Below are positions 25,006-25,573 of a DNA stretch of 48,412 nucleotides, in pieces. The notes under the pieces are model-generated. The model worked only from the letters and a program-made list of their open reading frames with translations. It made no database searches and had not been told where the DNA came from. Both the position numbers and the translations under genes were made by a program. The stretch lies in NCBI GenBank assembly GCA_009694295.1, contig SHVJ01000006.1, positions 1 through 48,412 on the forward strand, read 5' to 3'. The DNA is from Acidimicrobiia bacterium. Lineage in GTDB: Bacteria > Actinomycetota > Acidimicrobiia > IMCC26256 > PALSA-555. How positions within the stretch are numbered: the stretch's first letter is position 1; every line of letters begins with the position of its first letter.

Positions 25006-25048
25006 GAGGGTACGAGGTGTTCCTCTTCGATTTCTCACTGGTACCCTC
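25006..25048. promoter_or_regulatory. Inverted repeat over the rsiG-like promoter
   Basis: GAGGGTAC (25006-25013) and GTACCCTC (25041-25048) are a perfect 8-bp inverted repeat with 27 bases between. The right arm contains the -10-like TACCCT (25042-25047), which lies 7 nt before the ATG at 25055. A regulator binding both arms would cover the promoter; the spacing is long for an RNA hairpin. Confidence 0.5.
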
Positions 25049-25054
25049 ACAGTG

Positions 25055-25573
25055 ATGCCAGAAGACCACCACCGCCGAACCGATGCGGTCATCGAACCGC
25101 CGTACCTCGACGGGCTCGATGATCTCGACATCGACGGCGTGCGCGCCAAGCACGAGGAGTGCCTCGCGGTCGAGACTGAAGTCTCGTATGTGCGGCGCCT
25201 CGCGCAAGCCCGCATCGACATCGTCGAAGCAGAGCTCGACCGTCGGGCCAGTGGCGGCACGTTCACCGATCTCATGGCCAGGCTCCCGCAGATCCTGGCC
25301 GACGACACGCCGCGCCCGGCTCCGGCGTCGTCCCGGTTGCCGCGCCACCTCGGACCGGCACCCGACATCCAGTGGCGGCGTGGCCTCGAGCACCTCATCG
25401 CCGACGCAACCTTGGTGAACCTGCCCACCCTCTCCGAGGAGGAGCTCACCACGACGCTCACGCAGCTGCGCGAGCTCGAGCACCAGGTCTCGGTCACCCG
25501 CCGGGCTTTGCACCGCGTGATCGACTCGATCGAGGCCAACCTCGCCGAGCGGCTCAAGGTCGAGCACGCGTAG
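25055..25573 (+). CDS. rsiG: RsiG-family anti-sigma factor, c-di-GMP-binding
   Basis: 172 aa, mostly helical, two antiparallel coiled-coil helices joined by a Pro-rich linker (about 82-105). In Streptomyces, RsiG binds c-di-GMP through E(X)3S(X)2R(X)3Q(X)3D motifs and holds the sigma factor WhiG. The first helix here has a complete motif (E40, S44, R47, Q51, D55). The second has the same spacing with His in place of Gln (E142, S146, R149, H153, D157). This is strong evidence for a nucleotide-controlled anti-sigma factor. No whiG-like gene is in the window. The start is ATG 25055, 7 nt after TACCCT; the GTG three bases upstream is also open. Confidence 0.85.
   Translation: MPEDHHRRTDAVIEPPYLDGLDDLDIDGVRAKHEECLAVETEVSYVRRLAQARIDIVEAELDRRASGGTFTDLMARLPQILADDTPRPAPASSRLPRHLGPAPDIQWRRGLEHLIADATLVNLPTLSEEELTTTLTQLRELEHQVSVTRRALHRVIDSIEANLAERLKVEHA

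Follow-up and report, generated by a model that had tools for sequence, protein, structure and literature searches.

The stretch of DNA analysed here (the window; 48,412 nucleotides) is contig C47 of a 2.1 Mb Acidimicrobiia assembly that is 64.5% complete. It contains a gene of the RsiG family of anti-sigma factors, followed on the same strand by a gene for an XRE-type helix-turn-helix (HTH) regulator. Positions of the genes, the two c-di-GMP motifs and a likely promoter element are collected in Table 1.

Table 1. Features of the rsiG locus, with positions numbered within the window.
Feature	Position	Strand	Basis or remark
TACCCT, likely -10 element of rsiG	25042..25047	+	7 bases before the ATG; function predicted
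rsiG, twin-motif RsiG-family anti-sigma factor, 172 aa	25055..25573	+	ATG start, TAG stop; PF22802, 6pfj chain T, AlphaFold model
c-di-GMP motif 1, first long helix, E40-S44-R47-Q51-D55	25172..25219	+	sequence, alignments, model helix 26-66
c-di-GMP motif 2, last helix, E142-S146-R149-H153-D157	25478..25525	+	sequence, alignments, model helix 128-171
XRE-type HTH regulator gene, 116 aa	25582..25932	+	PF01381, 2.2e-14; 8 bases downstream of rsiG

A first-pass annotation had recognised the product of the first gene as an RsiG homologue, and this assignment is borne out by the Pfam RsiG family PF22802 (E=1e-25; 89.7 bits against a cut-off of 27; two stretches matched), by alignment of residues 23-168, nearly the whole length, to Streptomyces venezuelae RsiG (6pfj chain T; E=1.1e-12), and by structure matches. 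On sequence grounds, the family match is far above chance level. The exact motif ExxxSxxRxxxQxxxD occurs a single time among the 96,820 six-frame residues of the whole window, and both the open reading frame translation and the six-frame scan confirm the complete copy reported by the annotation at E40-D55. The second copy that it described is likewise found, at E142-D157, with the same spacing and with H153 (codon CAC, 25511-25513) replacing Q. The annotation called this second motif altered; the Q-to-H difference is real, but the word is not apt, since the motif has been published as E(X)3S(X)2R(X)3[Q/H](X)3D, with the remark that the stacking contact can be made by H as well as by Q (Schumacher et al. 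2021, PMC8325347). With either residue accepted, the protein carries one motif in each coiled-coil helix, and its 172 residues holding both helices rule out a single-motif homodimeric RsiG, which is small and lacks the second helix. E40, S44, R47, S146, R149 and H153 are invariant in an alignment of 23 sequences. Helices 1 and 5 are also alike outside the motif, with 7 identities at 36 non-motif positions (shuffle p=0.007 by score and 0.036 by identity), as expected from the known internal duplication.

An AlphaFold2 monomer model, computed from the 23-sequence alignment for the protein without ligand or WhiG, reached a pLDDT of 87.5 and places the motifs on two long helices (Table 1). When the model was compared with all PDB chains using Foldseek, only four chains matched at E<1e-3, all of them S. 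venezuelae RsiG (6pfv/6pfj), with TM-scores of 0.62-0.74 and 32% identity. The predicted fold is that of RsiG, namely two long helices and a loop, as in 6pfj and 6pfv. The window protein resembles S. venezuelae RsiG in length, two-helix fold, order of elements, the presence of a WhiG partner in the genome, and two E-S-R-x-D motifs with identical spacing; it differs in sequence (32% identical by structural alignment), in having H153 rather than Q in motif 2, and in its setting next to XRE and mshA-like genes in an Acidimicrobiia MAG. The single-motif RsiGs of Rubrobacter, Conexibacter and Thermoleophilum (7lq2-7lq4) share the c-di-GMP motif, and that of Conexibacter, a c-di-GMP binder, also carries H at the corresponding motif position; however, these are small homodimers (PDB chains of 84-118 aa) with one motif, whereas the window protein has both helices in one chain. 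Of the same class and architecture are the twin-motif RsiGs reported from three of four Acidimicrobiales (PMC8325347), and the window protein belongs with them. The published text places the Q-to-H variation in helix 1, while in the window protein and its whole order H lies in the last helix (PMC8325347).

All 50 aligned RsiGs of the same order have H as the fourth residue of motif 2, at identities to the window protein down to 40%. Across 140 twin-motif homologues from the phylum, this residue is H in 84 plus L025 (counted as H from the order alignment), F in 21, Q in 21, L in 11, M in 1 and I in 1, and the corresponding residue of motif 1 is Q in 125 and H in 15. On a tree of twin-motif RsiGs the motif-2 state requires about 13-14 changes, and family f31 alone contains Q/Q, H/H and Q/H proteins (motif 1/motif 2); family f48, which has genomes of 6-10 Mb, gives the strongest PF22802 scores and which we take to be Streptomyces, is Q/Q in all 11 sampled sequences. 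Since single-motif RsiGs show both Q and H, either could be ancestral. Judged from these sequences, H153 is the standard residue of its order, and the site is lineage-specific and labile.

The proposal of the first-pass annotation that H153 records an intermediate between single-motif and two-motif RsiGs was not borne out. It draws on the position of Acidimicrobiia outside the Streptomyces lineage and on the uniform Q at motif 2 in f48, but H is fixed in the order, the site has changed repeatedly across the family, with all three combinations inside f31, and single-motif proteins themselves carry Q or H. Furthermore, both helices lie in one chain, so that the protein is post-duplication and H153 cannot mark a step towards gaining a second motif; because tandem duplication supplies the complete second motif at once, a one-residue Q/H difference would instead be later drift or tuning. 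A partial or degenerating motif 2 limited to an early-diverging lineage is not the pattern found, since motif 2 is conserved in the order, and the intermediate reading is hardly credible.

A second reading is that H153 lowers affinity at one end of the binding site, so that the Acidimicrobiia switch responds at higher c-di-GMP. Conexibacter woesei RsiG (RsiG_Cw), whose sole motif has H and which as a homodimer presents H at both sites, binds c-di-GMP with a Kd of 25 uM alone and 1.7 uM with WhiG, about twofold more weakly than the Q-bearing RsiG_Rr (12 uM alone and 0.9 uM with WhiG; PMC8325347); this gap is small, however, and confounded by other sequence differences. The F, L, I or M found at this position in other lineages would fit a tuned or weakened second site, while the retention of the E, S, R and D of motif 2 in the window protein speaks against it, and we consider such weakening unlikely.

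Residues F, L, I or M, which go beyond the published Q/H, stand at the motif-2 stacking position in rows L128, L137, L140-L144, L146-L147, L149-L153, L173, L175, L186, L188-L191, L193, L195-L197, L199-L200, L203-L207, L209-L210 and L224-L225; the portions of PMC8325347 drawn on here contain no mention of hydrophobic residues there. The last residue of the motifs also varies. Within the order, motif 1 ends in E rather than D in 27 of 50 proteins (L011, L015-L017, L019, L027-L033, L038-L047, L049-L053) and in G in 2 of 50 (L020, L023), and motif 2 ends in H, A or G in a few members (L021, L022, L025); the window RsiG keeps D at the end of both motifs. Because the motif-end D varies among relatives, the order may tolerate altered guanine contacts, and changed guanine recognition in subclades is possible.

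By the annotation's own standard, a genome lacking a WhiG-type sigma factor would have refuted its reading, but one is encoded in the same genome (G000:C102:2162-2941), scoring 348.5 bits against the cut-off of 343 for the WhiG equivalog NF004935; its best PDB match is S. venezuelae WhiG (E=1.2e-90). In the crystal structure, c-di-GMP is contacted by WhiG residues K57, G61 and R62 (PMC8325347). These three align with K, G and R in the genome's WhiG, and this set is kept in 27 of the 28 readable WhiGs of the order, while the G and R are absent from FliA (9wsm). Of 58 genomes searched from the order, 54 have WhiG and 51 have RsiG. The genome of the window also encodes at least four GGDEF domains over the cut-off, and with them a potential to make c-di-GMP. 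rsiG and whiG are unlinked in this genome, where whiG lies directly downstream of a reading frame judged by eye to encode a XerC/XerD-like recombinase.

The best explanation of these observations, to which we assign a probability of roughly 0.88, is a functional twin-motif RsiG that holds WhiG under c-di-GMP control. By homology, we infer that the protein would bind c-di-GMP and WhiG, and in which direction regulation would run. RsiG would be a monomer whose two long helices pair as an antiparallel coiled-coil; at sufficient c-di-GMP the coiled-coil would bind a c-di-GMP dimer through both motifs, with H153 taking over the guanine-stacking role of the Streptomyces Q. The ligand-loaded face would then grip sigma2 and sigma4 of WhiG and keep it off RNA polymerase, and WhiG would be released when c-di-GMP falls. 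Points against this explanation are the variable motif-end D among relatives, the separate locations of rsiG and whiG, and the lack of a clear excess of flagellar-type WhiG promoters. A further antagonist of RsiG in Streptomyces is the phosphodiesterase RmdB, which acts through its binding to WhiG (PMC13232838).

Alternatively, the sigma factor held by this protein could be one other than WhiG, or the protein could act independently of c-di-GMP. The lack of linkage between rsiG and whiG, the conserved HTH regulator gene beside rsiG, and the genome G018, in which RsiG is present and WhiG has no match (although G018 is only 68% complete), lean in this direction. The co-occurrence of RsiG and WhiG throughout the order, the conserved K/G/R ligand contacts of WhiG and the conserved ligand motif of RsiG argue the other way, and make this alternative very improbable.

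In the window, rsiG is followed by the XRE-type HTH gene, then by an mshA-like glycosyltransferase gene and, further on, by proC. Of 49 loci from the order, 43 have the HTH gene next to rsiG and in the same orientation; it is probably co-transcribed with rsiG and is a candidate co-regulated partner. Its identification as BldD found no support, its best solved relatives being ClgR- and SinR-like XRE proteins, all of them weak matches. Upstream regions compared across the order (L001, L005-L053) show a TANNNT hexamer ending 4-14 bases ahead of the rsiG start codon in 24 of 50 members, against 0-7 members for other intervals of equal width, and this position suggests a housekeeping promoter and a leaderless rsiG transcript. 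The TACCCT of the window is not a -10 of the WhiG/flagellar type; rsiG itself is therefore probably no WhiG target. An inverted repeat upstream of rsiG (GAGGGTAC/GTACCCTC) was considered as an operator and rejected, as its conservation does not extend even to the nearest relatives.

A scan for WhiG/flagellar-type promoters (TAAA-N15-GCCGATAA) with at most 1 mismatch gave 1 match in the organism's own genome and 1 in the control; with at most 2 mismatches, four genomes of the genus gave 80 matches versus 56 in the controls, a weak excess. In non-sporulating Rubrobacter the switch controls type IV pili (PMC8325347); at loci for type IV pilus-type ATPases in the four genomes of the genus, the scan with at most 2 mismatches gave no match. 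As there is no clear excess of flagellar-type WhiG promoters, the WhiG regulon is not visible, and none is claimed.

The annotation had also presented the protein as a c-di-GMP-armed anti-sigma factor beyond the sporulating streptomycetes. An RsiG homologue outside Streptomyces, with WhiG in the same genome, agrees with this, but the extension is not newly seen: RsiG has been described across Actinobacteria, including the non-sporulating Rubrobacter and Thermoleophilia (PMC8325347), and PF22802 matched in 247 of 396 genomes sampled across the phylum. The rsiG gene of the window adds an unremarkable member to a known family that is widespread in this order and phylum, and is no outlier. Both the Q-to-H change and the occurrence outside sporulating streptomycetes are already published. 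The additions made here are small, namely H in the last helix, where the published variation is in the first, lineages with hydrophobic residues at that position, and the conserved rsiG-HTH pair.

Some observations concern the sampled genomes themselves. Three genomes of the phylum each contain three separate RsiG-like places (G118:C1, G167:C1/C2/C7 and G436:C7/C12/C43), although an in-frame stop interrupts two of the matches; Acidothermus, by comparison, has been reported to have two copies. Two MAGs titled Bifidobacterium breve (L089, CAMDCC010000006.1; L153, CAMAWR010000009.1) carry an Acidimicrobiia-type RsiG and gene order, and their names look wrong; L089 is a same-genus relative of the window with 88% identity. 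Two MAGs titled Acidobacteria bacterium (L123, L145) have an Acidimicrobiia-like rsiG beside an mshA-like gene, probably through misnaming or a binning error.

A broader and doubtful proposal is that the motif-2 stacking position is a lineage-specific tuning site that sets the threshold or asymmetry of the c-di-GMP response, with Q in Streptomyces, H in this order, and F or L/I/M in other uncultured lineages. As part of the same proposal, because rsiG appears to be co-transcribed with a dedicated HTH regulator, a second transcriptional output may be tied to the Acidimicrobiia switch. The fourth motif position is in any case more variable than the published [Q/H], with hydrophobic residues in many lineages, which is a modest refinement. 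The c-di-GMP-WhiG-RsiG switch is confirmed as close to universal in the order, most of whose Acidimicrobiia are uncultured. To our knowledge, members of the order are not streptomycete-like sporulators, and WhiG therefore probably controls something else there.
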